From a virus: a stretch of DNA of 33,582 nucleotides. The notes under the pieces were generated by a model that worked only from the letters and a program-made list of their open reading frames with translations, ran no database searches and was not told the DNA's origin. The translations under genes and the position numbers were made by a program. Position 1 is the first letter of the stretch, and every line of letters starts with the position of its first letter. The stretch spans positions 1 through 33,582 of the IMG/VR virus record IMGVR_UViG_3300001473_000102; one strand, 5' to 3'. Positions 8,513 to 31,579 of the stretch are shown here, piece after piece.

Positions 8513-8523
8513 GGGTGAGGGTG

Positions 8524-8556
8524 ACGGGGCGGTTCTTGGACCGCCCCGTTTCTTTT
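8524..8556 (+). terminator. Strong rho-independent terminator after coat gene
   Basis: Perfect ten-base-pair stem ACGGGGCGGT (8524-8533) / ACCGCCCCGT (8540-8549) with a six-base loop, followed by TTCTTTT. It lies 12 bases after the coat stop and should insulate coat transcription from the tail genes. Confidence 0.92.
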
Positions 8557-8585
8557 GCGCGTTGCGCGGCCTGCACCGCCCCGCA

Positions 8586-8684
8586 CCCCCACCCGGCCAC
8601 CCACGTGAGTATCCTTAATGGGTGGCCGGGTGGGGGAGCGGGGTGGCGCAGGCTCTTCCGACATAATTCGTGGCCGGGTGGGGG
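8586..8684. repeat. Perfect 18-bp inverted repeat plus a third half-site
   Basis: CCCCCACCCGGCCACCCA (8586-8603) and its exact reverse complement (8619-8636) flank a 15-base loop. A third copy of 15 bases in the second orientation, GTGGCCGGGTGGGGG, lies at 8670-8684. The tract sits between the coat terminator (8524-8556) and the next gene (8759). A further 6-bp hairpin (8699-8713, three-base loop) follows. There is no T-tract after the 18-bp stem, so it is not a normal terminator. Possible roles are a protein-binding operator, RNA structure or a REP-like element; none can be chosen from the sequence. Confidence 0.75.
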
Positions 8685-8758: not shown

Positions 8759-8932
8759 ATGCGACAGATGATCGGGCCGGTCGAGTTCGCCCGGCGGATG
8801 CAGGCGTTCGAGACGCCGACGTGGGGCTACCGGCGCGGCCGCGACGGCGAGGTCGAGCAGGACCTGTTCGACGGCAAGCCGAAGAAAGGCTGGGCCGACA
8901 GTCCGGCCGGCCTTGGCGGTGAGGGCGACTGA
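8759..8932 (+). CDS. Small hypothetical phage protein
   Basis: Product of 57 aa, MRQMIGPVEFARRMQAFETP then an acidic, Gly-rich tail. The ATG at 8759 is preceded by AGGAG at suitable spacing, so it is preferred over an in-frame GTG at 8711. The stop overlaps the ATG of the gp4-like gene (TGATG), arguing that it is translated with the tail module. Short proteins in this position occur in P22-like phages, but I cannot name a function. Confidence 0.65.
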   Translation: MRQMIGPVEFARRMQAFETPTWGYRRGRDGEVEQDLFDGKPKKGWADSPAGLGGEGD

Positions 8933-9321
8933 TGGCGACCGCCCGCGAACTGGTCACCGACGCCTATCAGGATGCCGAGGTCCTGGCGCTCGATGTCGAC
9001 CCCAGTGCCGAGGAGGCGGCCGACGGGCTGCGCCGGCTCAATCAGATGATCAGCGCGCTCGATCTCGACGGCATCCCGCTGGGGGTGGCGTCGTACGGGC
9101 TCGATGACACGATCAACGTGCCGGACAGCTTCGTCCGCCCGTTGCGCAAGATGCTGGCGGTGGAGCTGGCGGCGGCGGCCGGGCTGACGATACCGCAGAT
9201 GGCGGCGATCGACGCCGAGCGCGGCAAGCGCGCGCTCAGGGCGCAGTTCGCCCAGGTGCGCGAAAGCACGGTCGACCGCGGCCTGCAGGTGTCGCGCTAC
9301 GAATACGGCTGGAGGCGCTAG
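8932..9321 (+). CDS. P22 gp4-like tail accessory / head-completion adaptor
   Basis: Product of 129 aa. The start ARELVTDAYQDAEVLALDVD, then ADGLRRLNQMISALDLDGI, and a helical C-terminal half ending YEYGWRR match the P22 gp4 family. In P22 this protein forms a ring under the portal and creates the platform for gp10 and the tailspikes. It directly precedes the fibre array. Its 3' end (about 9170-9321) recurs as decayed copies at 11300-11418, 14032-14164 and 16141-16198, which is central to reconstructing how the array arose. The stop TAG abuts the ATG of fibre 1 at 9322. Confidence 0.88.
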   Translation: MATARELVTDAYQDAEVLALDVDPSAEEAADGLRRLNQMISALDLDGIPLGVASYGLDDTINVPDSFVRPLRKMLAVELAAAAGLTIPQMAAIDAERGKRALRAQFAQVRESTVDRGLQVSRYEYGWRR

Positions 9322-11199
9322 ATGGCGGCGACGATCCTGAACGTGCCGGGGTTGGGCTGGACCGACGCCAGCGGCAACCCGCTGAGCGGCGGCAAGATCC
9401 ATATCTATCAGGCCGGCACGGTCGACACGGTAAAGGCGAGCTATCCGACGCGCGACGACGCGGCGGCGCAAACCAACGCGAACACCAATCCGGTGGTGCT
9501 GGATTCGGCCGGGCGGCCGGCGACCGACATCTGGGTCGACGGGCGTTACAAGGCGGTGGTGACGGACGCGGCCGACCTGGTGATCGCAACGGTGGACGAC
9601 CTCGGCGGCACCGACAGCGACGATCTGATCCCGCGCGACTATGTCGGCGGGCTGGCGGTGACGGTCAGCGGCGGCGATGCCGAGCACGACTTCGTCGTCG
9701 CCGCCGGCGAAGCGCGCGATCAAGCCGATACCGACGACATCGTCCTCGTCTCGTCGCTGATCAAGCAGATCGATGCCTCCTGGGTCGCCGGCAGCAACGC
9801 CGGCGCGCTCGACACCGGCACGGTGGCGGCCGACACGGACTACTACATCTACCTGATCAAGAGTTCCGGCAGCGGGGTCGTCGATATCCTGCTGTCGGCC
9901 TCGTCCAGCGCACCGACGATGCCCTCGGGCTACGACAAGAAACAGCTCATCGCCCGGCTGGTCACCGACGCGAGCGCCAATATCGCTGCGGTCTATGGGC
10001 GGGACGAGGCGATTGCCGGGCTGTCGTTCAGCAAAGGCACCGTGGACGGCTCAGGGATCGCTGCGAGCGGCGCCAATACCGACATCACCAGCCTTGCCGG
10101 GCTGACATCGATCAACGGCCACGGCCAGTGGGGCTTCCGCAACCTGCTGCGCAACGGCGCAATGCGAGTGGCGCAAAGAGGCACGAGTATGGCTGGCTTG
10201 TCGACCGGGTATGGTCCCTGCGATGGCTGGGCAGTCGCGCGGTTGAGTGGCGGTTCATCTGCGGCAGTGTTTACCGTTAGCCAAGGAACCGAAGGACCCG
10301 CACCCTTTGACAACTTTGTGCGGTACTTGGTCACAACTGCTCAAGCTTCTATTGGCGGGGCGGATCACCTTGCGATCCAGCAGCGTATTGAAGCGCAGGA
10401 CCTGCAGCACCTGAACTACGGTGATGCCGGCGCTCAATCGGTAACGGTCAAATTCCGAGTCAGAGTTCATGCGGATGGCGCGTCGTCGCTGACGTTCCCG
10501 CTCACGCTTGGCGTGGCCCTCTACCAGCCGGACGGCTCGCGCTCTTACGTTCAGGAAGCAACCGTCAGTGCCGCGGATACCTGGGAAACCATAACCCTGA
10601 CATTCCCTGGAGATGCTTTCGGCACCATCAACAACGATAACGGTGAAGGGTTGAGGCTGGCACTAACTCTCTTTGGTGGGGCGAGCGCTCAAGCGACCGC
10701 GGGGGCATGGGCGGCTGGGGAAGACTATACGACGTCAAACCAAGATAATCTGTGCGATGCAACCAACAATTACACCGACTTAACTGGCATACAAGCCGAA
10801 GTCGGCAGCGTAGCCACCGAGTTCGAGCACGTGCCATACGTTGTCGAGCTGCAGCGCTGCCAGCGCCATTACTGGCGGTACTTCCCCGGAGAGATAAACT
10901 ACACGATTGGCGTCGCACAAGCCTACACCACTAGCGACGCGGTGCTGACGATGATGCACCCCACTCCAATGCGGGCTAAGCCGACGGTTGTCGACAGTTC
11001 GATCAGCCATTTCATGTTCACGTACAGCGGGGGAAACTCGTCAACCGTTGATGCTTTCACCTACCAGTCGAGCATTCGTGACTTCACTGGGTTCTGGAGT
11101 TCGAGCGCCACGCCATTCGCAGTAGACACTGCCGTCCGCATTCGCACCGACTCAACGAATGGCGCCTCTGCATGGATCGAAGCGACGGCGGAAATGTAG
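9322..11199 (+). CDS. Tail fibre/tailspike 1
   Basis: Product of 625 aa. Residues 1-100 resemble the P22 tailspike head-binding layout: NPLSGGKIHIYQAGT, NPVVLDSAGRP and GRYKAVVTDA correspond to the GKIYIG, INAAGK and V.IYDANG strands. Residues 110-228 form a stalk domain (DFVVAAGEARD to PSGYDKKQLIARLVTD). A linker with NGHGQWGFRNLLRNGAM leads to a jelly-roll carbohydrate-binding-like domain (IEAQDLQHLNYG, TINNDNGEGLR, LTGIQAEVGSVATEFEHVPY). The tip from about residue 515 is unique. Bases from about 10180 to 11199 are visibly more AT-rich than the 5' part, suggesting an acquired tip. GGAGG precedes the ATG. Confidence 0.88.
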   Translation: MAATILNVPGLGWTDASGNPLSGGKIHIYQAGTVDTVKASYPTRDDAAAQTNANTNPVVLDSAGRPATDIWVDGRYKAVVTDAADLVIATVDDLGGTDSDDLIPRDYVGGLAVTVSGGDAEHDFVVAAGEARDQADTDDIVLVSSLIKQIDASWVAGSNAGALDTGTVAADTDYYIYLIKSSGSGVVDILLSASSSAPTMPSGYDKKQLIARLVTDASANIAAVYGRDEAIAGLSFSKGTVDGSGIAASGANTDITSLAGLTSINGHGQWGFRNLLRNGAMRVAQRGTSMAGLSTGYGPCDGWAVARLSGGSSAAVFTVSQGTEGPAPFDNFVRYLVTTAQASIGGADHLAIQQRIEAQDLQHLNYGDAGAQSVTVKFRVRVHADGASSLTFPLTLGVALYQPDGSRSYVQEATVSAADTWETITLTFPGDAFGTINNDNGEGLRLALTLFGGASAQATAGAWAAGEDYTTSNQDNLCDATNNYTDLTGIQAEVGSVATEFEHVPYVVELQRCQRHYWRYFPGEINYTIGVAQAYTTSDAVLTMMHPTPMRAKPTVVDSSISHFMFTYSGGNSSTVDAFTYQSSIRDFTGFWSSSATPFAVDTAVRIRTDSTNGASAWIEATAEM

Positions 11200-11418
11200 A
11201 TGACGCGCTCACACTTTGTCGGCGGCAGCAACGACAACCGATCAGTTCAGGTCGATGCGCAGCGCGCGGCGAACATGGTCGCCGAACGGGCCGCGACTGC
11301 CGGGATGAGCCTGCTGCTGATCGATGCGGAGTGCAGCCAGCGAACACGTCGGGTCTACGACAACATCCTCGGCGCCGGCCGGCTGACCTCACGCGACAAG
11401 TGCGGCAGGAGGCGGTAG
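11200..11418 (+). pseudogene. Chimaeric junction ORF: gp10-like start fused to gp4-like end
   Basis: This 72-residue open frame begins like the gp10-like plug protein (VGGSNDNRSVQVDAQRAANM against LGGSNDNRSVQVDAQRSVNI at 18044) for about 30 residues. It then continues like the C-terminus of the gp4-like adaptor: AATAGMSLLLIDAE then RRR, against AAAAGLTIPQMAAIDAE then WRR. It is too short to be either protein, so it is probably a recombination scar that has stayed open. It starts immediately after the fibre 1 stop and its TAG abuts the fibre 2 ATG, so its translation could still feed ribosomes to fibre 2. The AGGAGG for fibre 2 is at 11407-11412. Confidence 0.82.
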
Positions 11419-12936
11419 ATGGCGGCGACGCTGTTGAACGTGCCTGGCCTGGGCTGGACCGATGCCAGCGGTAACCCGCTGAGTGGCGGCAAGATCTACA
11501 TCTACCAGGCCGGCACCATCGATACGGTCAAGGCGAGCTATCCGACGCGGGACGACGCGACGGCGCAGAGTAATGCCAACACCCATCCGGTGGTGCTCGA
11601 CTCCGCCGGGCGACCGGCGACCGACATCTGGGTCGACGGGCGCTACAAGGCCGTGGTGACGGACGCGGCCGATCTGGTGATTGCGACGGTCGCCGACCTC
11701 GGCGGTACCGACAGCGACGATTTGATCCCGCGCGACTATGTCGGCGGGCTGGCGGTCACGGTCAGCGGCGGGGATGCCGAGCACGACTTCGTCGTCGCTG
11801 CGGGCGAAGCGCGCGACGACGCCGACAGCGACGACATGGTGCTGGTCTCGTCGCTGACCAAGCAGGTCGATGTCGCGTGGGCGGCGGGCAGCACCGCCGG
11901 CGCTGTCGACACCGGCACGGTGGCGGCCGGTACGGACTACTACATCTACCTGATCAAGAGCAGCGGCACCGGCGCCGTCGATGTCTTGCTGTCGGCCTCG
12001 GCCAGCGCGCCGACGATGCCGTCTGGCTACGACAAGAAGCAGCTCATCGCCCGGCTGGTCACCGATGCCAGCGCCAACATCTCCGCCGTCTATGGGCGGG
12101 ACCGTACCATTTCGGGCGTGGGGCTCGCGAAGGGGGTGCTTTCGAACGCTACCATCTCCGGCGCGGCGGTGGCCGCCCCCTGGCGGCCGAGGGGACTGCG
12201 GCTGACGAACAACGGCACGGACGCGGCAAACGACATCGACATTGCCGCTGGTGCCGTGCTCGATTCGACGGCCGCTGTCGACATCGTGCTGGCAACGTCC
12301 TTGACGAAGCGGCTCGACGCGAACTGGGCGGCCGGAACCAATGCGGGCGGCCTCGATACCGGCGCCAAAGCCAACAGCACACTCTACGCCGTCTGGGCGA
12401 TCCACCCGACCGTCGTATCGGGCGCCTCGGACAGCCTGTTCTCGACGAGCTTCACAACGCCGACGATGCCCGGCGGTTACAGCTACAAGCGGCTGATCGG
12501 CGCCATCGTCACCAACGGCAGCGGCGCCATCGTTCCGTTCCTGCAGGTCGGCGACTATTTCCGCTATCTCGCTAGCCCGATTATCGACGTGAACGACGGC
12601 ACGATGGCCAACGGGGTGGTCGAGACGGCCACACTGTCCGCGCCACCGCTCGCGAAGGCGCACGTATATGGTTACCTGTCCAACAATACGAGCACGACGA
12701 CGAGTGGCAGTTTGATGATCCGTACAGTCGGGTCGTCGGAGGACGTCGGCAACAATGCTCAAAGCTGGGCATTCACCGGAAGCGCTGCGAACTTCGATGA
12801 CATCACGATCATTGGTGAAGTGCTTGTCGATGGCAACAGGCAGGTGGAGTACGCGGCGGAGGTGCTCAGCGGTTCGGCAACGGTGCAGATCAGAACGTTC
12901 GGCTTCGCGATGCTCACCAGGAGCGATCCAGTCTGA
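11419..12936 (+). CDS. Tail fibre/tailspike 2, duplicated stalk domain
   Basis: Product of 505 aa. Residues 1-228 are the shared docking and stalk module. The second half differs from the other fibres: residues about 260-375 repeat the stalk domain itself (IDIAAGAVLDSTAAVDIVLATS, read as DFVVAAGEARDDADSDDMVL in the first copy; then PTMPGGYSYKRLIGAIVTNG against PTMPSGYDKKQLIARLVTDA). The tip (about 376-505) is a beta-rich Ser/Thr domain with no sign of the carbohydrate-binding domain of fibres 1 and 4. AGGAGG lies six bases before the ATG. It is followed after 53 bases by the methyltransferase gene. Confidence 0.85.
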   Translation: MAATLLNVPGLGWTDASGNPLSGGKIYIYQAGTIDTVKASYPTRDDATAQSNANTHPVVLDSAGRPATDIWVDGRYKAVVTDAADLVIATVADLGGTDSDDLIPRDYVGGLAVTVSGGDAEHDFVVAAGEARDDADSDDMVLVSSLTKQVDVAWAAGSTAGAVDTGTVAAGTDYYIYLIKSSGTGAVDVLLSASASAPTMPSGYDKKQLIARLVTDASANISAVYGRDRTISGVGLAKGVLSNATISGAAVAAPWRPRGLRLTNNGTDAANDIDIAAGAVLDSTAAVDIVLATSLTKRLDANWAAGTNAGGLDTGAKANSTLYAVWAIHPTVVSGASDSLFSTSFTTPTMPGGYSYKRLIGAIVTNGSGAIVPFLQVGDYFRYLASPIIDVNDGTMANGVVETATLSAPPLAKAHVYGYLSNNTSTTTSGSLMIRTVGSSEDVGNNAQSWAFTGSAANFDDITIIGEVLVDGNRQVEYAAEVLSGSATVQIRTFGFAMLTRSDPV

Positions 12937-12989
12937 CAAATTGTGGATGGCCGATGCGCCGTGTATCTTCCGATGCACGGAGGGCGGTC

Positions 12990-13910
12990 ATGCAGACGAA
13001 GTACGTTCGATATCTCATTTGCCCGGATTGCCGGGCCGGCGACCTGGAAATCCGGTGCGAGACCGGGGACGCTGACAACGTCGAAGAAGGGGCACTAGTC
13101 TGCGGCTGCGGCGCGTCGTTCAGGATATCTGAAGGCATCCTTGATTTGACGCCTTCGGGGCTCTCGGCAGACGGCGGGTTCGAGGCTCAGCGCCAGCAAA
13201 GAGAGCACTTCGACTGGTACGCCGACAACGAGATCCAGAGCTATCTGGAGTATCAGCAGATGCCGTTCTGGCGGGCGTTCGATGACAAGACGCTGTCCGA
13301 CTGGGATCGGCGGATCCCCAAAGGCGGCGTTGTGTTGGACCTCGCTTGCGGCGATGGAAGATGTGCTGGACCTCTGGCAGACGGCAGAACGGTTTTGGCC
13401 TGCGATATCTCGCGTAAGCAAATCGTCAATGCATCAAGACGTTGGGCTGGGCGGGACTGCTTTTTCTTCGTTGGCGATGCGCAGAACCCGCCGATAGCGC
13501 CCGGCACAATAGATGCCATCACGTTGTACGGTGCCCTGCATCACATCCCAGACCCGGAGGCCGGGTTTCACAATGGAATGGCGTTGTTGAAACCAGGCGG
13601 CGTCCTGCTCGCGGCCGAACCGAATCTCACGGTCTTTCGGCCCTTGTTCGACTTTCTGATGCGTGTGTTGCCGATCTGGCACGAAGAAGCCAATGACGAT
13701 CCGCTGATCTCCAGGCAAATGGTGCGGAGCTGGGCGGCTGGGGCGGAAGTTGATGTGGAAACAAGCGTTTTCATTCCGCCGCACGTCTGTAACTGGCTCG
13801 GCACGGCCGCAGGGCGCGCCATGTTTCGGGCCACAGAGGCCCTCGGCAAAGCTCTGCCCTTGGTGCGTAACCAAGGCGGTATCATTTTGATCGCCGCGCA
13901 GCGCGCATAG
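12990..13910 (+). CDS. SAM-dependent methyltransferase with N-terminal zinc ribbon
   Basis: Product of 306 aa. An N-terminal Trm112-like ribbon has CPDC (Cys11, Cys14) and CGC (Cys38, Cys40), then the class I fold: motif I VVLDLACGDGR (114-124), an acidic residue after strand 2 in LACDIS (Asp139), GDAQ (163) and LHHIPDPE, followed by LLKPGGVLLAAEP. This is the Methyltransf_11 type common in small-molecule and glycan modification loci; the substrate cannot be read from sequence. I chose the ATG at 12990 because GGAGGG is five bases upstream, rather than the ATG at 12954. Its place inside a fibre array suggests glycan or fibre modification, or simple cargo carried with fibre 2. Confidence 0.85.
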   Translation: MQTKYVRYLICPDCRAGDLEIRCETGDADNVEEGALVCGCGASFRISEGILDLTPSGLSADGGFEAQRQQREHFDWYADNEIQSYLEYQQMPFWRAFDDKTLSDWDRRIPKGGVVLDLACGDGRCAGPLADGRTVLACDISRKQIVNASRRWAGRDCFFFVGDAQNPPIAPGTIDAITLYGALHHIPDPEAGFHNGMALLKPGGVLLAAEPNLTVFRPLFDFLMRVLPIWHEEANDDPLISRQMVRSWAAGAEVDVETSVFIPPHVCNWLGTAAGRAMFRATEALGKALPLVRNQGGIILIAAQRA

Positions 13911-14164
13911 GCGACTTTCAACGGGGACACGACTGCCCCGCCCGCTTCGTCGGCAACGGTGACGTCAGCCGTTTTGTTTCGGTCGATGTTCCGCTCCCAG
14001 TAAGCATTGCGACCAAGCCTCCGCAGGCGGACGAGCTGAGCATCCCGCAGATGGCGGCGACCGGCACCGAGCGCGGCAAGTAGCCGCTGCGAGCGCGGTT
14101 CGTGGAAGCACCGTCGACGGCGGCCGACCGGCCTCACACCAAAAAGCACGATAGGAGGCGGTAG
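13911..14164 (+). pseudogene. Intergenic tract with decayed gp4-like 3' end
   Basis: The first 120 bases after the methyltransferase hold nothing I recognise. From about 14032 the sequence follows the 3' part of the gp4-like gene: CCCGCAGATGGCGGCGA, then GAGCGCGGCAAG, here followed by an in-frame TAG. A piece matching AGCACGGTCGACCGCGGCC of the parent comes next (14107 on) and leads into the conserved leader and AGGAGGCGGTAG before fibre 3. No open frame remains. It marks the left border of the fibre 3 cassette. Confidence 0.75.
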
Positions 14165-16045
14165 ATGGCGGCGACGCTGTTGAACGTGCCTGGCCTGGGC
14201 TGGACCGATGCCAGCGGTAACCCGCTGAGTGGCGGCAAGATCTACATCTACCAGGCCGGCACCATCGATACGGTCAAGGCGAGCTATCCGACGCGGGACG
14301 ACGCGACGGCGCAGAGTAATGCCAACACCCATCCGGTGGTGCTCGACTCCGCCGGGCGGCCGCCGGCCGACATCTGGGTCGACGGGCGCTACAAGGCCGT
14401 GGTGACGGATGCTGCCGATCTGGTGATCGCTACGGTTGACGACCTCGGCGGCACCGACAGCGACGACCTGATCCCGCGCGATTATGTCGGCGGGCTGGCG
14501 GTCACGGTCAGCGGCGGGGATGCCGAACACGACTTCGTTGTCGCCGCGGGCGAAGCGCGCGACGATGCCGACAGCGACGACATGGTGCTGGTCTCGTCGC
14601 TGACCAAGCAGGTCGATGTCGTTTGGGCGGCGGGCAGCAACGCCGGCGCGCTCGATACCGGCACGGTGGCGGCCGGCACGGACTACTACATCTACCTGAT
14701 CAAGAGCAGCGGCACCGGCGCTGTCGACGTCTTGCTGTCGGCCTCGGCCAGCGCGCCGACGATGCCGTCCGGTTACGACAAGAAGCAGCTCATCGCCCGG
14801 CTGGTCACCGATGCCAGCGCCAACATCTCCGCCGTCTATGGGCGCGACTGGACAGTTGCTGGTATCGCGTTCTCCAAAGGCAGCTTGTCCGGTGTCCTGT
14901 CGGCCGACATTGCCGCCATCAGTGGCCTGCGCAGGATCAACGGCCTGGGCTCGTGGGGCCATCGCAACGTCGTTATCAACGGCGGCATGGAGGTTTGCCA
15001 GCGGGAGACATCCATCGCAGGGTTGGGCGGCGGCGGTCAGACATCGTTTCAGGTCGACCGTTGGGGCATTCAGGATGCCGGATCGGCCAGCGCACGCTGG
15101 ACGCTGTCGCAGGAAAGCGGCGGCGGCGTCGACGGAAAATCCATGTGGTTCAAGGCCTGGTGCCAGACTGCCGATCCGACGCCTTCGGGGGTCGAATCAC
15201 AGCGTATCGCCACGGCGATAGAGGGCCGAAATGCACGGAGTCTGGTCGACGCGTCGAACAAGCTTCAGGAATTCACCCTTTCGCTCGACATTATTCTGCA
15301 CGCGGCGGGTGCATCCGGGATCACCTTCCCGGCCACGGTACCCCTGACGGTGTTCACCGAGGACGGCACGGCGCGGAGCTATGTCAAGGACGTAACTATT
15401 GACGCGGCCGTCACATGGCAGCGGGTGTCGATCACGGTGCCGGCCGATGCGACGGCACAGATCGACAATGACAACGGACTCGCCTTGCGGCTGGGCGTGG
15501 GCCTGTATGCGGCAACCGCCGCAAGCGACGGCGTGTGGGCCAATCTCGCGAACAACTTCGCCACGGTGAACTCGGAGAACATCGGCGATGCCACGGGCAA
15601 CTATGTCGGCATCACCAACGTGCAGGCGGAACCAGGCCCCGCCGCAACCGATTTCGAGTGTGTGCCGTACGATGTCGAATTTGCGCGCTGCCGGCGATAC
15701 TTTCGCAAAATCATCGACGTTCAGGGCGGCGGCGATTACATCGCGGACGGCATGGCGATATCGGCTGGCGGTGCGTATTTCCACTTCCCGCTCGATCCGC
15801 CGATGCGCGACACGCCGTCAGGCGAGTTCATTCAGGGTGATGCGACGGCGCTGGATATGCAAAGCGAGACGGCAAATCCGATTGTCTCGGTTACCGACTT
15901 TGGCCATGTGGTCGGGGAAGGCGGTCCAAGTCTCGCGGTCCTGTACGCTGTAGCTTCATCTCTGACTGTATTTGAGGCGGTACACCTTCGCGCCGACGGG
16001 TCGACAGGAGCCGGTTTCAAATTTGGCCTTTCTGCCGAGACATAG
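14165..16045 (+). CDS. Tail fibre/tailspike 3
   Basis: Product of 626 aa. Residues 1-228 are the shared docking and stalk module, nearly identical in DNA to fibre 2. The linker diverges (DWTVAGIAFSKGSLSGVLSA) but reaches the same NGLGSWGHRNVVINGGMEV anchor seen in fibres 1 and 4. A carbohydrate-binding-like domain follows, with IDNDNGLALRLGVGLYA and GITNVQAEPGPAATDFECVPY, and then a distinct tip (from about residue 520, YFRKIIDVQGGGDY). It probably binds a surface glycan different from those of fibres 1 and 4 (inference). TAGGAGGCGGTAG directly precedes the ATG. Confidence 0.86.
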   Translation: MAATLLNVPGLGWTDASGNPLSGGKIYIYQAGTIDTVKASYPTRDDATAQSNANTHPVVLDSAGRPPADIWVDGRYKAVVTDAADLVIATVDDLGGTDSDDLIPRDYVGGLAVTVSGGDAEHDFVVAAGEARDDADSDDMVLVSSLTKQVDVVWAAGSNAGALDTGTVAAGTDYYIYLIKSSGTGAVDVLLSASASAPTMPSGYDKKQLIARLVTDASANISAVYGRDWTVAGIAFSKGSLSGVLSADIAAISGLRRINGLGSWGHRNVVINGGMEVCQRETSIAGLGGGGQTSFQVDRWGIQDAGSASARWTLSQESGGGVDGKSMWFKAWCQTADPTPSGVESQRIATAIEGRNARSLVDASNKLQEFTLSLDIILHAAGASGITFPATVPLTVFTEDGTARSYVKDVTIDAAVTWQRVSITVPADATAQIDNDNGLALRLGVGLYAATAASDGVWANLANNFATVNSENIGDATGNYVGITNVQAEPGPAATDFECVPYDVEFARCRRYFRKIIDVQGGGDYIADGMAISAGGAYFHFPLDPPMRDTPSGEFIQGDATALDMQSETANPIVSVTDFGHVVGEGGPSLAVLYAVASSLTVFEAVHLRADGSTGAGFKFGLSAET

Positions 16046-16048
16046 CTA

Positions 16049-16198
16049 ATGGCCCGCATGCGTCTCTTCCGCGTCCGTAAGGACAACCGGACTGAGCGAG
16101 CCAGCACCGTGCGCGGAATAGGGATGCTTCAGACCCATGACAGCACCGTCGACGGCGGCCGGCTGGCCTCGTGCAACAAGCAGGATAGGAGGCGGTAG
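16049..16198 (+). pseudogene. Junction remnant: gp10-like start and gp4-like end
   Basis: After fibre 3 the sequence begins ATGGCCCGCATGCGTCT and reads MARMRLFRVRKDNR, which aligns loosely with MTRARFLGGSNDNR of the gp10-like protein. From 16142 it carries AGCACCGTCGACGGCGGCC, shared with the tract before fibre 3 and matching the 3' part of the gp4-like gene. It then has the common leader ending AGGAGGCGGTAG before fibre 4. It is shorter and more decayed than the scar at 11200-11418. The gp10-like part is the weaker of the two matches. Confidence 0.65.
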
Positions 16199-18040
16199 AT
16201 GGCCGCGACGCTGCTGAATGTGCCTGGCCTGGGCTGGACCGATGCCGGCGGCAATCCGCTGAGCGGCGGACGGATCTACATCTATCAGGCCGGCACCATC
16301 GACACGGCCAAGGCGAGCTACCCGACGCGGGACGATGTGGCGGCGCAGAGCAATGCCAACACCCATCCGGTGGTGCTGAACTCGGCCGGGCGGCCGGCGG
16401 CCGACATCTGGGTCGACGGGCGCTACAAGGCCGTGGTCACGGATGCCGCCGATCTGGTGATCGCGACGGTCGACGATCTCGGCGGCACCGACAGCGACGA
16501 CCTGATCCCGCGCAACTATGTCGGCGGGCTCGCGGTGACGGTCAGCGGCGGCGATGCCGAGCACGACTTCGTCGTCGCCGCTGGCGAGGCGCGCGACGAC
16601 GCCGACAGCGACGACATGGTGCTGGTGTCCGCCCTGACGAAGTACATCGATGCGGTCTGGGCTGCTGGCACGAACGCCGGCGCGCTCGACACCGGCACGG
16701 TGGCGGCCGACATGGACTATTACATCTACCTGATCAAGAGCAGCGGCACCGGCGCCGTCGATGTCCTGCTGTCGGCCTCGGCGAGCGCGCCGACCATGCC
16801 CTCGGGCTACGACAAGAAACAGCTGATCGCCCGGCTGGTCACCGATGCCAGCGCCAATATTTCCGCCGTGTATGGCCGCGACGAGGCGATTGCCGGGCTG
16901 TCGTTCAGCAAGGGCACCGTGGACGGCACAGGGATCGCCGCGAGCGGCGCCAATACCGACATCACCAGCCTTGCCGGGCTGACATCGATCAACGGCCACG
17001 GCCAGTGGGGCTTCCGCAACCTGATTATCAATGGCGCGATGCGGATTGCCCAGCGTGGCGCGGGGAACATCACCGGCATCGGCGCGGCAAATACTTATCT
17101 GAACTGCGACCGTATTGCGTTCGGTCAACACAACACACCGCAAGCACGCTTCACAGCTACGCAATTCGCCAATGGGCCTGACGGTTTCCCGTATTGGCAA
17201 GGCATGACCGTTACGACCGCCGAAGCCGCGGTATCGGCGACCGAATACAGCGGGTACGAATACAAGATCGAGGCGCAGGACCTTCAGCATCTGCTCTACG
17301 GCACGCCGGCCGCCAAGGCGTTGGCCGTTCAGTTCCGGTTTCGGTCGCCGAAGACGGGAATTCATTGCGTAGCTCTCTATCAGGCAGACGGCGATCGCTC
17401 GTATGTCGCCGAGTTCACCGTTGCGGCGGCGAACACGTGGGAAACGCACACTGTCATTTTTCCCGGCGACACGGCCGGTACGATCAACAACGACAACGGC
17501 GAAGGGCTGCGCATCGTCTGGCCGTTCGTTGCGGGAACGAGCCGTCAACAGTCTATCGATGCGTGGGCTAGCGAGTTTGACGTCGCGAGCTCTGCCCAAC
17601 AAAACCTGGCTGACACTATTGGCAACATCATTGGCCTGACCGCGATCCAAATGGAAGTCGGCCCGGTTGCGACCGCGTTCGAGCACGTTTCCTATGACAC
17701 CGACCTGCAGCGCTGCTATCGCTACTTCCAGCGCGCCAGGGACCTTTGGAACCTGCCCGGCATCATTTATTCGACCAGCGGCTGCGTTACGCCGTGGCCG
17801 TTGTACCCGATCAGTATGATGCGCGCCGATCCTAGCGTAACGCGCAACGGTACGTTCAACATCAACCATAGCGGCGGCGCAACGGTAACAACCACGGTGT
17901 CGCTGGCGCAAAATGGCGCTAACGATACCATCTCTGGCATTCATTGGAGTGTCAGCGGCTCTCCATTGACGCAATGGCAGGCTTGCACTGTCAACTTCAG
18001 CGGCGGCAACGAATTCCTCGACCTGAGCGCGGAGCTGTAG
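16199..18040 (+). CDS. Tail fibre/tailspike 4
   Basis: Product of 613 aa. It shares residues 1-228 with the other fibres and a longer stretch with fibre 1 (EAIAGLSFSKGTVDG to NGHGQWGFRNL, about residue 275). The carbohydrate-binding-like domain (IEAQDLQHLLYGT, SPKTGIHCVALYQADGDRSY, TINNDNGEGLRIVWP, LTAIQMEVGPVATAFEHVSY) is of the type often found at the end of phage fibres. The tip from about 510 is unlike the others. The distal part contains more AT-rich codons than the 5' module. It is the copy adjacent to the intact gp10-like gene, so it occupies the ancestral right-hand position. Confidence 0.87.
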   Translation: MAATLLNVPGLGWTDAGGNPLSGGRIYIYQAGTIDTAKASYPTRDDVAAQSNANTHPVVLNSAGRPAADIWVDGRYKAVVTDAADLVIATVDDLGGTDSDDLIPRNYVGGLAVTVSGGDAEHDFVVAAGEARDDADSDDMVLVSALTKYIDAVWAAGTNAGALDTGTVAADMDYYIYLIKSSGTGAVDVLLSASASAPTMPSGYDKKQLIARLVTDASANISAVYGRDEAIAGLSFSKGTVDGTGIAASGANTDITSLAGLTSINGHGQWGFRNLIINGAMRIAQRGAGNITGIGAANTYLNCDRIAFGQHNTPQARFTATQFANGPDGFPYWQGMTVTTAEAAVSATEYSGYEYKIEAQDLQHLLYGTPAAKALAVQFRFRSPKTGIHCVALYQADGDRSYVAEFTVAAANTWETHTVIFPGDTAGTINNDNGEGLRIVWPFVAGTSRQQSIDAWASEFDVASSAQQNLADTIGNIIGLTAIQMEVGPVATAFEHVSYDTDLQRCYRYFQRARDLWNLPGIIYSTSGCVTPWPLYPISMMRADPSVTRNGTFNINHSGGATVTTTVSLAQNGANDTISGIHWSVSGSPLTQWQACTVNFSGGNEFLDLSAEL

Positions 18041-18043
18041 GCC

Positions 18044-19432
18044 ATGACACGTGCACGTTTTCTCGGTGGCAGCAACGATAACCGGTCGGTGCAGGTCGAT
18101 GCGCAGCGCTCGGTCAATATCGTCGCCGAACTGGACCCGCAGTCGAAGTACCAGATGGCCGGCTATCAGCGGCCGGGGCTGGCGACCTGGGCCAATGCGG
18201 GCGCGGCCGAGGTACGCGGCTTCGACGTGTTCAACGGCGAACTCTATACCGTCGTCGGCGCCGAGGTACGCAAGGTCCGGACCAGCGGCGCGGTGACGCC
18301 GATCGGCACCATCGGGACCGACAAGGGCCCGGTCGGCATCGCGCACAGCCCGAGCCAGGTGGTCATCGTCGACGGCGACAAGGGTTACTACACCGACGGC
18401 TCGAGCCTGACGCAGATCGGCGCGCCGGCGTTCCCCAACGGCGCCACGCACATCGGCTACATCGACGCGGTGTTCCTGGTCAACGATCCGTCCAACGCCG
18501 GTCGGTTCTACCAGTCCGACACCAACTCGGCGACCGGCTGGAACGCGCTCAACTTCGCGACCGCCGAACGCGATCCCGACCATCTCGACGCGCTGCTGAT
18601 CGATCACCGCGAGGTCTGGCTGTTCGGCCGCGAGACGACGGAGGTGTGGACCGGCGACGGTTCCACAGGCGTCGCCTTTTCGCCGGTCTCCGGCGGCTTT
18701 ACCGAGGTCGGCATCGCCGCGCCCTATTCGGCGGCGAAGGCGGGCGATGCGGTCTACTGGGTGGCGCAGGCGCGCCAGGGCGGCCCCTCGGTGTTCCGCG
18801 CCATGGGCCTGAAGGGCGAGCGGATCTCGACGCCGTCGGTCGAGGACGACATTGCCGCCGCCGGCGACCTGAGCCTGGCGGTCGGCTCGATGATCTACTT
18901 CCGCGGTCACCTGCTCTACCTGCTGAAGCTGCCCGGCGGCAAGACGCTGGTGCACGACAGCGGCACCGGCCTGTGGTCGGAATGGCGCAGCCAGGACCGC
19001 GACAACTTCCGCTGCTCGCACTTCATCTATTTCAACGGCGCGCTGTACGGTGGCGACGATCAGGACGGCAATATCTTCCGCGTCGACCCCGACGTCTATG
19101 ACGACGCCGGCGCGCCGATCGAGCAGATCCGCCGCGATCGCTACATCAACGCCGGCGACAGCCGCCGGATGCTGAAACACAAGGCACTGGAGATCGAGTT
19201 CGAGATGGGCCAGGGCGGCCCGCTGGTCGAACCGCAGGCGGCGATGCGTTTCTCCGACGACGGCGGCCACACCTGGTCGCGCGAGTGGCGCCGCGGCCTG
19301 GGCAAGCAGGGCGAATACGACAAGCGCGCCCGCTGGGGCCGGCTGGGCGCGAGCCGCGACCGGGTCTACGAGGTCTCGGTCAGCGCGGCGGCCAAGACCA
19401 CCTGGGTCAGCGGCTTTCTGGATCTGGCCTGA
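18044..19432 (+). CDS. P22 gp10-like packaged-DNA stabilisation / tail plug protein
   Basis: Product of 462 aa. The start (FLGGSNDNRSVQVDAQRSVN, then PGLATWANAG), the blocks PVGIAHSPSQVVIVDGDKG and EVWLFGRETTEVW, and the end (FSDDGGHTWSREWRRGLGK) match the P22 gp10 family. These proteins sit below the gp4 ring, help hold DNA in the filled head and contact tailspikes. The ATG is three bases after the fibre 4 stop. Two degraded copies of its 5' end lie between the fibre genes (11200 and 16049). Its stop overlaps the next ATG (TGATG). Confidence 0.9.
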   Translation: MTRARFLGGSNDNRSVQVDAQRSVNIVAELDPQSKYQMAGYQRPGLATWANAGAAEVRGFDVFNGELYTVVGAEVRKVRTSGAVTPIGTIGTDKGPVGIAHSPSQVVIVDGDKGYYTDGSSLTQIGAPAFPNGATHIGYIDAVFLVNDPSNAGRFYQSDTNSATGWNALNFATAERDPDHLDALLIDHREVWLFGRETTEVWTGDGSTGVAFSPVSGGFTEVGIAAPYSAAKAGDAVYWVAQARQGGPSVFRAMGLKGERISTPSVEDDIAAAGDLSLAVGSMIYFRGHLLYLLKLPGGKTLVHDSGTGLWSEWRSQDRDNFRCSHFIYFNGALYGGDDQDGNIFRVDPDVYDDAGAPIEQIRRDRYINAGDSRRMLKHKALEIEFEMGQGGPLVEPQAAMRFSDDGGHTWSREWRRGLGKQGEYDKRARWGRLGASRDRVYEVSVSAAAKTTWVSGFLDLA

Positions 19433-19803: not shown

Positions 19804-20210
19804 TCCGCGACGCCACGGTCGAGGACATTCCGCAGATGGTGACGTGGGGACGGCAGTTCGCCGACATGACGCCATGGGCCGGACCCTGTCCGTTCGATGC
19901 GGGCGACTTCGCCAACACACTTCGGGGGCTGATCGAAAACGGCATCTGCCTTGTCTCGGACAAGGGGATGGCGGCGGCGGTTTTGGCCCCCTGCTTGTTC
20001 AATCATGACGCCGTGGTGGCCCAGGACCTGTTCGTCTGGCGCGACGGCCGCCTGCTCGCCGCGTTGGAGGCCCGCGCGCGGGAGCGCGGGGCGGTCGCCT
20101 TCATGATGGCGGCGCAGATGTATGCCGGCATGCGGCCGCGGGCAATGCGGCGATGGCTGCGGATGCACGGCTATGCGCAACTTGAAACCTATTGGATGAA
20201 GGAACTCTGA
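19800..20210 (+). CDS. GNAT-like acetyltransferase fold protein
   Basis: Product of 136 aa starting at a GTG that overlaps the previous stop. The opening IRDATVEDIPQMVTWGRQFA is typical of GNAT proteins. The strand VVAQDLFVWRDGR, the helix LAALEARARERGAVAFM and the ending RRWLRMHGYAQLETYWMKEL match the later GNAT strands. The acetyl-CoA loop (Q/R-x-x-G-x-G/A) is not clear, so activity is uncertain. Related proteins are common in podovirus tail modules. About 100 bases of its 3' end are repeated at 21591-21694, before the second ejection-protein gene. Confidence 0.72.
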   Translation: MIRDATVEDIPQMVTWGRQFADMTPWAGPCPFDAGDFANTLRGLIENGICLVSDKGMAAAVLAPCLFNHDAVVAQDLFVWRDGRLLAALEARARERGAVAFMMAAQMYAGMRPRAMRRWLRMHGYAQLETYWMKEL

Positions 20211-20211
20211 A

Positions 20212-21420
20212 GTGCCGGCAGTCAGCGCGATCGCGAACGTCTTCGGTGCGTCGAAGAACGAGTCCCTGGCAATGCGCGCGGCGGATCTCCAGTCGCAAAA
20301 CGCCGAGCGGGCCCTTGCCGAGCAGCGGCGGCAGTATGATCTGGCCCGGCAGGACCTGGCGCCATTTCGGGTCGCCGGCTACAACGCCCTGGCCGACATG
20401 ATGCGCGGCTTCGGCTACGACGTGACGATGGGCGACGCTCTCAGCGGTCAGCCGCCGGCAGAGCCGGACGAGACCGCGCCGGGCGGTGCCGGCGCCAGCG
20501 GTGCCGACGAGCCCGGGCTGCTGGATCAGTTCCAGGCCGAGCTTGCGGCGCTGGAGCAGGAACAGCGCGACATCAATATGATCGGCGCCGATACCCCGCG
20601 CGAGTCGGCGCAGCGACTGTTGGATATGCGCCGTGACGAACTGCAACGCCGGATCAACGAGGCCGGCGGCGTCGTGCAGGGCGGCAAGATCTTTGCCGGT
20701 CAGGATCTGATCGACACCTCCAAGGCCAAGCCGGAAGCGCCGGAGGCCGACCCGACCTTCACGTTGACCTACAGCGGCCAGCCCGGCGAGTTCAACGCCC
20801 CGCTGGTGTTCGACCCGGGCGAGGAATTCCGCACGCCATTGGTGTTCGAGTTCGATCCCTCGCGGCTGGCTGAAGACGAAGGTTACCAGTTCCGGCTGAA
20901 CGAGGGCCTGCGGGCCCAGCGCGCCAATGCCGCCGCCAGCGGTATGATGCTGTCGGGCGACGCGCTGCGCGAGGCGCAGCGGTTTGGCGAAGGGCTGGCG
21001 TCCAGCGAACTGAACAATGCGTTCAACCGGCAGTACACCACGTTCGGCACCCGGGTCGCCGACCGCAACAACCGGCTGAACGTGCTGAAGGACATCTACA
21101 ACAGCCAGGTCGTCGACCGGGCCAACCGGTTCAACCGGCTGGCGGCGATGACCGGCATCGGCCAGACGGCCACGAACACCGGCGTTGTTGCCGGTACCAA
21201 CATGGCCAACAACATCAGCAACACGCTGATGACATCGGCGCAGAACGCCGGCCAAGCCTATCTGGCGGCCGGCAAGGGCTGGTCGGATGCCGGGGCGAAC
21301 ATCGGTAATGCGTTCACGAGCTTCTTTAAGCCAACTCAAACCAGCAATACTCAGGCCGTCACAACAGAATTCTACCCTGAAGGCGTTAGCGGCAGCAGTG
21401 GCTTCCCGTCGATCTTCTAG
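20212..21420 (+). CDS. Putative DNA-ejection internal virion protein, copy 1
   Basis: Product of 402 aa from a GTG start one base after the GNAT stop. The N-terminus (ASKNESLAMRAADLQSQNAE, then QRRQYDLARQDLAPFRVAGY) and the long helical C-terminal half (GYQFRLNEGLRAQRANAAAS, ASSELNNAFNRQYTTFG, DIYNSQVVDRANRFNRLA) are typical of phage 'DNA transfer' or ejection proteins delivered into the host envelope, comparable in role to P22 gp7/gp20. A variable insert lies at about residues 110-145. The last 45 residues (SFFKPTQTSNTQ to SIF) differ from copy 2. Confidence 0.72.
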   Translation: MPAVSAIANVFGASKNESLAMRAADLQSQNAERALAEQRRQYDLARQDLAPFRVAGYNALADMMRGFGYDVTMGDALSGQPPAEPDETAPGGAGASGADEPGLLDQFQAELAALEQEQRDINMIGADTPRESAQRLLDMRRDELQRRINEAGGVVQGGKIFAGQDLIDTSKAKPEAPEADPTFTLTYSGQPGEFNAPLVFDPGEEFRTPLVFEFDPSRLAEDEGYQFRLNEGLRAQRANAAASGMMLSGDALREAQRFGEGLASSELNNAFNRQYTTFGTRVADRNNRLNVLKDIYNSQVVDRANRFNRLAAMTGIGQTATNTGVVAGTNMANNISNTLMTSAQNAGQAYLAAGKGWSDAGANIGNAFTSFFKPTQTSNTQAVTTEFYPEGVSGSSGFPSIF

Positions 21421-21695
21421 GCGCGTGCGACGCAACTTTTGCCCCACCGTTCTCCGGCCGGCGTTCGGTAACGCCCGTAGCCAATGCCCTGCGGCCGAAC
21501 TGGATCGCACTCACCCGGCCGGGCGGCGAGGCTTATGAGGAGAAACTCCGGACGCGGTCTGGCGACGACCTCTCGGGCCCGAATGCGCTGTGGCGGCGCA
21601 GATGTATGCCGACATGCATCCGCGGGCGATGCGGCGATGGCTGCAGATGCACGGCTATGCGCAACTTGAAACCTATTGGATGAAGGAACTCTGAG
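21421..21695 (+). pseudogene. Intergenic tract with repeated 3' end of GNAT gene
   Basis: The first 170 bases contain short disrupted coding-like sequence that I cannot assign. From about 21591 to 21694 the DNA is a near copy of the end of the GNAT gene (20107-20210), including the last codons and stop: the coding text runs MYADMHPRAMRRWLQMHGYA and continues to MKEL. The upstream part of the GNAT gene is absent, so it is a truncated duplicate. The ATG of ejection-protein copy 2 follows one base after its stop, exactly as in the parent arrangement. Confidence 0.88.
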
Positions 21696-22865
21696 ATGCC
21701 GGCATTCAGCGCGATCGGAAACATCTTCGGCGCATCGAAAAACGAATCCCTGGCGATGCGCGCGGCCGATCTTCAGTCGCAAAACGCCGAGCGGGCCCTT
21801 GCCGAGCAGCGGCGGCAGTATGATCTGGCGCGGCAGGACCTGGCGCCATTTCGGGTCGCCGGTTACAACGCCCTGGCCGACATGATGCGCGGCTTCGGCT
21901 ACGACGTGACGATGGGCGACGCGCTCAGCGGCAAGCCGCCCGCAGAGCCGGACGAGACGTCGTCGGACGGTGCCGGCGCCAGCGGTGCCGATGAGCCCGG
22001 CCTGCTGGATCAGTTCCAGGCAGAACTGGCGCAGTTAGATGCGGACATCGAGCGACTGGGGAGAATGTTCAATCCGGGTGAGCCCGGTTCGCACGAACTG
22101 GACTCACGCATCCGGCAACGCGACGATCTTGTAACGAGGATCAACGAGGCCGGCGGCGTCGTGCAGGGCGGCAAGATCTTCGCCGGCCAGGATCTGATCG
22201 ACACCTCCAAGGCCAAGCCGGAGGCGCCGGAGGCCGACGCGACCTTCGCGCTGACATACAGCGGCCAGCCCGGCGAGTTCAATGCCCCGCTGGTGTTCGA
22301 CCCGGGCGAGGAATTCCGCACGCCGCTAGTATTCGAGTTCGATCCCTCGCGGCTGGCCGAAGACGAGGGCTATCAGTTCCGGCTGAACGAGGGCCTGCGG
22401 GCCCAGCGCGCCAATGCCGCCGCCAGCGGCATGATGCTGTCGGGCGATGCATTGCGCGAGGCGCAGCGGTTCGGCGAAGGGCTGGCGTCCAGCGAACTGA
22501 ACAATGCCTTCAACCGGCAGTACACCACGTTCGGCACCCGGGTCGCCGACCGCAACAACCGGCTTAATACGCTGAAGGACATCTACAACAGCCAGGTCGT
22601 CGACCGGGCCAACCGGTTCAACCGGCTGGCAGCGATGACCGGCATCGGCCAGACGGCCACGAACACCGGCGTTGTTGCCGGCACCAACATGGCCAACAGC
22701 ATCAGCAACACGCTGATGACGTCGGCGCAGAACGCCGGCCAGGCCTATCTGGCCGCCGGCGCGGGCTGGTCAAGGGCCGGGGAAAACATCGGCAAAGCGT
22801 CCACGAGCTTCTTCGGCAAGGACGGCGGCGGCTCTGGTTGGGCGCAAAAAATCTTGGGTGGCTGA
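21696..22865 (+). CDS. Putative DNA-ejection internal virion protein, copy 2
   Basis: Product of 389 aa, a tandem paralogue of the gene at 20212, with long identical stretches in protein and very similar DNA. Two segments differ. The insert at about residues 108-146 (DIERLGRMFNPGEPGSHELD) has unrelated sequence, and the C-terminal tail is shorter and Gly-rich (SFFGKDGGGSGWAQKILGG). It starts with ATG where copy 1 has GTG. Both open frames are intact, so both proteins may be packaged, possibly as a hetero-oligomer (inference). Confidence 0.72.
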   Translation: MPAFSAIGNIFGASKNESLAMRAADLQSQNAERALAEQRRQYDLARQDLAPFRVAGYNALADMMRGFGYDVTMGDALSGKPPAEPDETSSDGAGASGADEPGLLDQFQAELAQLDADIERLGRMFNPGEPGSHELDSRIRQRDDLVTRINEAGGVVQGGKIFAGQDLIDTSKAKPEAPEADATFALTYSGQPGEFNAPLVFDPGEEFRTPLVFEFDPSRLAEDEGYQFRLNEGLRAQRANAAASGMMLSGDALREAQRFGEGLASSELNNAFNRQYTTFGTRVADRNNRLNTLKDIYNSQVVDRANRFNRLAAMTGIGQTATNTGVVAGTNMANSISNTLMTSAQNAGQAYLAAGAGWSRAGENIGKASTSFFGKDGGGSGWAQKILGG

Positions 22866-29782: not shown

Positions 29783-29801
29783 GCCGACCTAATCGGTCGG
29801 C
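29783..29801. terminator. Possible hairpin between convergent genes
   Basis: GCCGACC (29783-29789) and GGTCGGC (29795-29801) can form a seven-base-pair stem with a five-base loop that covers the stop of the minus-strand lipoprotein gene, where it meets the plus-strand operon. There is no T-tract on either side, so termination is only a possibility. The 100 bases to its left contain no gene. Confidence 0.3.
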
Positions 29802-30247
29802 TGGCGCTTCGGCATCAGCCAACTGCAGGAGCTGCCCTGCCAACTGACCTCGGTGACGCGGTTGTTTCGCAGCGTGAAGTGGACGTCGCATTGATGCGTT
29901 ACTAGCTTGGTTGGCTCCGTCACCACCTGCTCGCCATGCACGGTGACCAGTTTCCCGCCGCGGACTTCGGTGCTGGTCGTCTGCACCCTGCGCGTGTCGC
30001 CGCCACTGGTGCTGGTTTCACTGAAGTCATAGGTGAGGACACGGGCGCCGGTGGACGTCGTGTAGACCCCATGCGGCGCACCGTAGCGCGACACCAGTTG
30101 GTCGTCGGACGCGCCGACCCAGGCGTCCATCTTCTGCTGGGTCTTCTCCCGCAGGCCCATACAGCCACCGAGCGCGACGACCAGCAAGAGGGCCGGCAGC
30201 ACACGGGCCGGAACAAAAACCGGCGGTTTCGACATGGCCTTGCGCAT
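29789..30247 (-). CDS. Putative outer-membrane lipoprotein, paralogue B
   Basis: Product of 152 aa with a lipoprotein signal peptide: basic start MRKAMSKPP, hydrophobic core, then LLLVVALGGC with Cys29 as the lipidation site. The mature part holds MDAWVGASDDQLVSRYGAPH, VYTTSTGARVLTYDF and a later VTVHGEQVVTEP and TEVSWQGSSC. The WVG...L...G.P....Y..G...LTY pattern belongs to small lipoproteins found in bacteria and prophages, with an unknown role. I use the ATG at 30247 (GGGAG upstream) because the longer frame upstream overlaps the neighbour. It is transcribed against the late operon, with its paralogue 41 bases upstream. Confidence 0.75.
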   Translation of the reverse strand: MRKAMSKPPVFVPARVLPALLLVVALGGCMGLREKTQQKMDAWVGASDDQLVSRYGAPHGVYTTSTGARVLTYDFSETSTSGGDTRRVQTTSTEVRGGKLVTVHGEQVVTEPTKLVTHQCDVHFTLRNNRVTEVSWQGSSCSWLMPKRQPTD

Positions 30248-30288
30248 GGCGGTACTCCCGGTCCGCGTTCTCTGAACGGTATGGCGCC

Positions 30289-30750
30289 TCACCACAGGAT
30301 CGGCAGCTTGGCGTGCGCACCGCAATTGTTGCCCCGCCAGGAAACGTCGGTGATGTAGCCGTCGCTGACCGTAAAAGACGCTTCGCACGTCAGACTGAAG
30401 GACTGGACCGGTTCGACCACAACCTGTTGGCCGTGCACGGTGTATGACGAGTCAACGGTGCGATAGCCGGAGGAACCGACGAAGCTGTGCCTGCCGGTGG
30501 CCGTCGTCGTGGTCGGCACCGTTCTCGTACCGCCGCCGGTTTGGATCTTCTGATCATAGCTGTAGGTGAGAACGCGGTCGCCCGATGACATGGTGTAGAC
30601 GGACGATGGCGGGCCTTTCTGCGAAATCAGCTTTTGCTCGGCGACGCCGACCCAGGCGTACATTCTCTCGCGGACCTGCTCCGCGGTGACGATGCACCCG
30701 CTGAGAACGGACGCGATCAAAAGGGCGGGAACAAACAGCATCTTCCGCAT
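30289..30750 (-). CDS. Putative outer-membrane lipoprotein, paralogue A
   Basis: Product of 153 aa with signal MRKMLFVPALLIASVLSGC (lipidated Cys19). The mature part (MYAWVGVAEQKLISQKGPPS, VYTMSSGDRVLTYSY, VHGQQVVVEP, ITDVSWRGNNC) aligns throughout with the gene at 29789, so they arose by tandem duplication. The bases just upstream of both ATGs are also alike (ACTGGGAGTACCGCC against ACCGGGAGTACCGCC on the coding strand). The first gene of a minus-strand pair, it diverges from 30858. A GATAAT box lies on its strand at 30794-30799, but no good -35 was found. Envelope lipoproteins of this kind in prophages may affect host surface or superinfection (inference). Confidence 0.75.
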   Translation of the reverse strand: MRKMLFVPALLIASVLSGCIVTAEQVRERMYAWVGVAEQKLISQKGPPSSVYTMSSGDRVLTYSYDQKIQTGGGTRTVPTTTTATGRHSFVGSSGYRTVDSSYTVHGQQVVVEPVQSFSLTCEASFTVSDGYITDVSWRGNNCGAHAKLPILW

Positions 30751-30857
30751 GGCGGTACTCCCAGTTCGCGGCCCTCGGGCCGAACATATTCTCATTATCG
30801 TAGCGCCGCACCCCTGAAAGAGGGTTAACGGTGGCTTTTTGCAATTAGGGGTTGGAT

Positions 30858-31202
30858 ATGGCGGTGAAACCGGGTGACAGCGGGGCCGCCGGGCCTGGCG
30901 CGCGGCGGCTGGCGCTGGGTGTGGCGGCGCTGCTGGCCGGGCTGCTGGCGGGGCCGGCGGGTGCTGCGGCGCAGGGTTATTGCGGCGAGCGCGCGGCGCT
31001 GCTGCGCCAGCTCGAGGCAAGCCACCGCGAAGCGCCCGCGGCCAGGGGCCTGACCGGCCGCGGCCGGGTGGTCGAACTCTTGACCAGCGACAGCGGCAGC
31101 TGGACGATCATCGTCACCGCGGCGGACGGCACGTCCTGTCTGGTCGCCGCCGGCGAGGCCTGGGAAGCGCTCGCGCCGCCGCCGCCGGGGCAGGGCTCAT
31201 GA
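30858..31202 (+). CDS. Small secreted/periplasmic protein
   Basis: Product of 114 aa with a signal peptide (RRLALGVAALLAGLLAGPAG, cleavage probably after AGAAA). The mature part contains YCGERAALLRQLEASHREAP, GRVVELLTSDSGSWTIIVTA and TSCLVAAGEAWE, a pattern common in small exported alphaproteobacterial proteins of unknown role. Two Cys could form a disulfide. AGGGG lies six bases before the ATG; a TTG two codons earlier is possible. The stop overlaps the next ATG (ATGA), so it is coupled to the coiled-coil membrane protein at 31199. Confidence 0.7.
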   Translation: MAVKPGDSGAAGPGARRLALGVAALLAGLLAGPAGAAAQGYCGERAALLRQLEASHREAPAARGLTGRGRVVELLTSDSGSWTIIVTAADGTSCLVAAGEAWEALAPPPPGQGS

Positions 31203-31579
31203 CCGCCTCGCTGAACGAACGGGTGCGCATGGCCGACCGGGTCCTGCAATGGCACCCGGTCGCGCGCATGCTGCTGACCGCGCTGGTCACCACCGTGTGC
31301 CTGACCGGCAGCGGCATGGCGTTCTATTTCCGCATGGAACACCGGGTCGACAACAACAGCGCCGGGCTGGTCGACGTGAAGGCGACGCAGGGCGAGGTAC
31401 GCGACGACATCGACGCGGTGCGCCGCTCGGTCGGCCAGATCCAGACCGACCAGCGGGTGCTGACCCAGCGCTTCGAGGACAAGCTGACCAGCGACGAGAA
31501 ATTCCAGCAACGCACCGACCGCGCGCTGGAACGCATCCAGCGCCTGCTCGACCGGCAGAATTACAATGACGGCAGGTAG
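31199..31579 (+). CDS. Single-pass membrane coiled-coil protein
   Basis: Product of 126 aa. One membrane segment (about residues 22-44, VARMLLTALVTTVCLTGSGM) follows a short N-terminus. The remaining 80 residues form a charged heptad-like helix (EVRDDIDAVRRSVGQIQTDQ, RALERIQRLLDRQ). An N-in anchor with a long periplasmic coiled coil is the layout of inner-membrane spanins and some phage lysis accessory proteins, and the coupled upstream gene encodes an exported protein. No endolysin is visible nearby, so the lysis role is only a suggestion. Confidence 0.65.
   Translation: MTASLNERVRMADRVLQWHPVARMLLTALVTTVCLTGSGMAFYFRMEHRVDNNSAGLVDVKATQGEVRDDIDAVRRSVGQIQTDQRVLTQRFEDKLTSDEKFQQRTDRALERIQRLLDRQNYNDGR

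Follow-up and report, generated by a model that had tools for sequence, protein, structure and literature searches.

The broad host range of podoviruses is usually ascribed to the swapping of one fiber tip. In P22, six tailspike trimers dock on the tail (PMC3741392). P22 gp9, the cyanophage tailspikes 7eeq and 9vyg, and PBR31 all have a head-binding domain, gp4 and gp10 as partners, and P22-type coat, portal and scaffold proteins. Sinorhizobium phage phiM5 and Sulfitobacter phage PhiGT1 belong to a LUZ24-like lineage. In phiM5, tail fiber genes are reported to be interspersed between tubeA (gp4) and tubeB (gp10), and an excess of fiber genes was noted in PhiGT1 (PMC10386132). The Ackermannviridae, including CBA120 and S117, carry four adjacent tailspike genes whose 5′ sequences are conserved and whose 3′ sequences vary, and for which an origin by duplication was proposed; when one more tailspike gene, the fifth, was added with the common 5′ sequence, recombination or deletion occurred among the tailspike genes (PMC11414711). 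These myoviruses build a branched complex held together by T4 gp10-like and XD domains, which vary from one tailspike to another.

Here we analyze a P22-like locus with four fiber genes. It shares the head-binding domain and the virion proteins listed above with the P22-like phages of single tailspike or fiber, but those phages have one fiber gene, located elsewhere, whereas this locus has four in the gp4-gp10 interval. It resembles phiM5 in having fiber genes near gp4 and gp10 and PhiGT1 in its fiber excess, although the lineage differs. Like the Ackermannviridae cluster, it consists of neighboring receptor-binding genes that are conserved in their 5′ and variable in their 3′ portions; unlike in that cluster, no XD or T4 gp10-like branching domain was found in the four fibers with Pfam and PHROGs.

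Results

Genome context and layout of the array

The window, i.e. the whole stretch of 33,582 nucleotides analyzed here, is one uncultured genome from a metagenome-derived IMG/VR virus record. It encodes a terminase, a P22-type portal (P22_portal, E 2e-189), a scaffold (phrog_8865, E 3e-35), a P22 coat (P22_CoatProtein, E 2e-68), a gp4-like adaptor and a gp10-like stabilization protein, and is thus a P22-like podovirus. As the preliminary description had reported, four complete fiber ORFs (F1 to F4) are present between the gp4-like and gp10-like genes (Table 1). The array spans ∼26% of the window, in agreement with the quarter estimated earlier. The four genes do form an adjacent cluster, but they are not strictly “in a row”: a gp10 stump (within 11200-11418) and a methyltransferase interrupt them.

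Table 1. Coordinates of the fiber array and neighboring features in the window.
Feature	Position	Strand	Remarks
Terminator-like hairpin, coat/gp4 interval	8523..8550	+	consensus scan only
gp4-like tail accessory/head-tail adaptor (fiber docking ring)	8932..9321	+	phrog_637 E 6e-10
F1 fiber, 625 aa	9322..11199	+	head-binding domain 1-∼100, mtd_2nd-like 159-206, CBM-like tip ∼270-500
Scar 1	11200..11418	+	truncated gp10 5′ end 11200-11295, then gp4 3′-end remnant
Exact repeat, 206 nt, F2 vs F3	11407..11612, other copy 14153-14358	+	probable gene-conversion tract
F2 fiber, 505 aa	11419..12936	+	common docking module, second mtd_2nd-like repeat, short different tip
Class I SAM methyltransferase	12954..13910 (start probably 12990)	+	Methyltransf_25 E 5e-16
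Scar 2	13911..14164	+	weak gp10 5′ remnant; gp4 3′-end remnant 14026-14164
F3 fiber, 626 aa	14165..16045	+	docking module; tip related to F1/F4
Scar 3	16046..16198	+	gp4 3′-end remnant of 60 nt; no significant gp10 remnant
F4 fiber, 613 aa	16199..18040	+	tip 46% identical to F1
gp10-like packaged-DNA stabilization/head closure protein, intact	18044..19432	+	phrog_578 E 1e-99; PF11134 E 1e-8

Every fiber copy has the good ribosome-binding site (RBS) that had been attributed to it. The Shine-Dalgarno sequence is AGGAGG, 6 nt upstream of the ATG, in F2, F3 and F4, and GGAGG in F1. That of F1 sits within the intact gp4 gene, and those of F2-F4 sit within a copied gp4 3′ end; the RBS region of the fiber genes thus probably derives from the last 60 nt of the gp4-like gene. 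Within the array, a consensus scan found neither promoter-like nor terminator-like signals in excess, which suggests that the fibers are co-transcribed with gp4 and gp10.

The gene between F2 and F3, METHYLTRANSFERASE, is a SAM methyltransferase of foreign composition (GC3 0.70) with an N-terminal Trm112-like zinc-ribbon stretch. No relatives were found in phages or in the IMG/VR scan. It may be a passenger; possibly it alters the host surface.

Several other features of the window were observed. In the coat/gp4 interval, just past the hairpin, lies a long inverted repeat (8569-8653) with 35-nt arms that are 91% complementary. A DNA-ejection gene (phrog_598) is tandemly duplicated (20107-21326 and 21591-22813; 89% DNA identity, dN 0.09, dS 0.32); with it, a second virion gene of this module is duplicated. 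Two neighboring minus-strand ORFs at 29789-31020 each match phrog_3716 and are 38% identical to each other. The region 31501-33000 has a GC content of 52%, compared with 65% for the window, and holds a large minus-strand ORF with no family match. The ORF at 1053-2210 contains an imperfect internal repeat of ∼200 nt (1665-2023; 70% identity).

A common docking module

The preliminary description stated that the fibers share about 228 N-terminal residues. Over residues 1-228, all pairs of F1-F4 are 88–97% identical. Because these modules are in-frame 684-nt copies with roughly 83–94% DNA identity (the copies differ by 6–17%), their likeness is not due to chance. The head-binding layout of P22-tailspike type that had been noted at the N-terminus was borne out by both profile and fold. 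A profile built from 17 sequences of the window and of IMG/VR matched PDB 7eeq_A, “Tailspike head-binding domain” (E 3e-18). The AlphaFold model of F1 matched the P22 head-binding domain (2vky/2vnl) with a Foldseek probability of 1.00, at an E of only 0.02, and the Pan3 cyanopodophage tail complex (9vyg), also with a probability of 1.00; the E-values of the fold matches were 0.003–0.02 overall. The matched domain comprises the N-terminal ∼100 residues.

Residues 159-206 match the second domain of Mtd (PF21916) in all four fibers. In the F1 model, residues 99-243, which include this stretch, are of low confidence as a monomer. An Mtd/diversity-generating retroelement system was considered and rejected, since the shared domain is the second-domain stretch PF21916 only. 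No reverse transcriptase match was found among the ORFs scanned, a subset of the window ORFs. Judging from the common module, all four fibers should be able to trimerize and dock on the same gp4/gp10 tail sites.

By the Nei-Gojobori method, the module has a dN/dS of 0.08–0.16 in all six pairs and a dS of 0.15–0.45. All four frames are open, with neither frameshift nor stop in any copy. The docking module thus shows apparent purifying selection, although the low dN/dS could reflect selection before capture, not selection within the present genome. There are also signs of gene conversion or other sequence exchange among the copies, as the 5′ ends of F2 and F3 are exactly identical over 206 nt (permutation p 0.0001). 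F1 and F4 have an exact 84-nt block in common, downstream of the module, in a stretch that diverges in F2 and F3. The likeness of the modules would then be maintained by purifying selection together with gene conversion.

Three related tips and one different tip

The four tips had been taken to be unrelated. This does not hold for three of them: homology links the tips of F1, F3 and F4 (E <= 1e-43), with identities of 46% for F1-F4, 36% for F1-F3 and 32% for F3-F4. The set thus comprises one tip family with three diverged members and, in F2, a tip of another kind. The second mtd_2nd-like repeat of F2 (12193-12528) is 47% identical to module residues 110-220. The structure model of F2 was poor (mean pLDDT 42) and was left out of the fold search.

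The F1/F3/F4 tip belongs to phrog_4492, “tail fiber protein”. Tips of this type have relatives in cyanophages, HMO-2011 and Pelagibacter phages. In the F1 model, residues 270-520 have a pLDDT mostly above 90. The best PDB matches of the tip core were the carbohydrate-binding modules CBM4 and CBM61, and the best matches in the viral library were phage tail fibers; this predicted likeness suggests that the F1/F3/F4 tip binds glycans. GC3 is 0.88–0.90 in the modules, as in the core genes, versus 0.66–0.81 in the tips. This lower GC3 points to tips that are foreign or have been exchanged, and that look exchangeable.

Remnants of gp4 and gp10 in the spacers

We compared the spacers with gp4 and gp10 by local alignment against 500 dinucleotide shuffles. 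The gp10 5′ stump in scar 1 is 80% identical over 96 nt to the intact gp10 (18044-18139), and both scores of this scar (116 and 71) exceeded every one of the 500 shuffles, whose maxima were 47 and 63. The gp4 remnants of scar 2 (score 117, shuffle maximum 55) and scar 3 (52, maximum 44) were likewise above the shuffles, so that the gp4 3′-end remnants upstream of F2, F3 and F4 each beat all 500. The gp10 remnant of scar 2 is weak (score 42, reached in 5 of 500 shuffles), and that of scar 3 is not significant (score 24, reached in 207 of 500).

Given the gp4 3′ remnants upstream of each of F2, F3 and F4, and the gp10 5′ stump behind F1, the simplest reading is that the array probably arose by repetition of a gp4′-fiber-gp10′ unit, composed of a gp4 3′ end, a fiber and a gp10 5′ end. 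The unit may have been repeated by unequal crossover or by recombination with related phages, after which the redundant gp4 and gp10 ends would have decayed into the scars. An intermediate with two or three copies at the gp4/gp10 locus was not found among the related genomes.

Fiber copy number in related phages

The preliminary description had called this number of fibers with one docking module unusually high, and the census agrees. Among loci that were collected by similarity to window proteins, many of them fragmentary and not a random sample, the model of the head-binding domain found one copy in 132 of the 133 loci having any; the exception was the window, with four. Exactly one head-binding domain was present in 34 of 35 whole related contigs, and none had more. 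In named phages, one query found 36 places in 35 records. The search of IMG/VR for the fiber module found only one near-identical contig and one distant contig, and none was found in the bacterial genomes searched.

The record with two places is Podoviridae sp. ctkAd229 (MW202691.1), a P22-like phage with two adjacent spikes that are 58% identical over the N-terminal 153 residues and differ distally. In contrast to the window, it has two copies, which lie downstream of gp10 and several further genes, and one distal part is of pectate-lyase type. Another P22-like phage, from Manatee Spring (MW202573.1), has a fiber with a head-binding domain and an mtd_2nd-like region that resembles F2. In this record a methyltransferase is annotated in the coat/tail adaptor interval, and another gene lies between the tail adaptor and the stabilization protein. 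Unlike the window, it has only one fiber, after the ejection genes.

In the relatives fetched, the head-binding domain is encoded downstream of gp10, downstream of the ejection genes, or in the portal/scaffold interval. A fiber between gp4 and gp10 was not seen among the P22-like ones, so the location is unusual for that group, as had been proposed; it is not unique, as phiM5 is reported to have it (PMC10386132). A different arrangement was seen in many P22-like IMG/VR phages (L040, L045, L051, L054, L055, L092, L093 and others), where a short anchor, a single head-binding-domain protein of 296 aa, is followed by two or three ∼190-aa paralogues. The latter are perhaps small exchangeable tips that use the one anchor.

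Discussion

We consider it fairly probable that the locus is a multi-specificity receptor-binding array, whose fibers have common docking and differing tips, are co-expressed and form mixed particles, and which grew by unit repetition. The fibers, gp4 and gp10 would share one operon, with every fiber translated from its own gp4-derived RBS. Since the P22-type docking domain is common to all four and a branching domain is absent, they would compete for one type of site, and given the six tailspike sites of P22, four fiber types could share six sites. The likeliest outcome is production of all four fibers, whose competition for common docking sites would yield mixed particles. With three CBM4-like tips and one other tip, the particle population could bind several surface glycans. 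By analogy, the array appears closest in action to the Ackermannviridae cluster; it would work like that cluster and is not a member of it. A more specific version, in which each particle carries a random fiber mixture, the gp4′-fiber-gp10′ unit is repeatable and the methyltransferase alters the recognized host glycan, seems to us quite unlikely.

The locus could instead be a recombination reservoir, where one copy at a time dominates the virion, the others store tips, and homologous exchange among the repeated 5′ modules removes or replaces copies across the population. The long direct repeats, the F2/F3 conversion tract and the F1/F4 mosaic block fit this reading, as does the fate of the fifth Ackermannviridae tailspike with its shared 5′ end (PMC11414711). 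We regard it as unlikely: the genes examined included neither an invertase nor a reverse transcriptase, and a crossover between two direct repeats removes genes and does not switch them reversibly. Moreover, each of the four fiber genes is of full length and possesses its own RBS and start, features that silent gene stores usually lack. It is also conceivable, but improbable in our judgment, that fiber units accreted recently, that most copies have no lasting function and that the locus is heading to collapse. Relatives do hold one copy, the scars record repeated insertion and decay, and the ejection gene is tandemly duplicated as well (89% identity). However, with a dS of 0.15–0.45, a dN/dS of 0.08–0.16 and intact frames, the fibers have diverged too far to be very recent duplicates of a single gene. 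This divergence argument fails if the copies came from other phages.

A chimeric contig that joins the fiber loci of co-occurring strains is, in our estimate, highly improbable. The metagenomic origin of the record allows for it, and a second contig, L006, which matches the window exactly along 5682 nt, ends within the F1 module at 9784, the kind of break expected at a repeat; it covers the array up to that first module. The exact F2/F3 repeat could also permit a wrong join of the downstream parts and so affect the pairing of modules with tips. Against this, the copies differ by 6–17% in DNA, the intervening scars are unique, and every internal junction has its own decayed gp4 end; in a mixture of strains, complete gp4/gp10 copies or abrupt breaks would be expected. 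A simple assembly artefact was rejected on these distinct copies and distinct scars. That the locus holds a single fiber and would collapse on re-assembly is likewise unlikely, because the copies, their tips and the scars between them all differ.

What is new here are the gp4 3′-end remnants before F2, F3 and F4 and the gp10 5′ stump after F1. A multi-receptor array is already known from myoviruses (Ackermannviridae), and the surprise is therefore moderate. With four fibers that have a common docking end, a podovirus tail of mixed fibers becomes testable, and the scars would provide a readable record of how fiber arrays grow.
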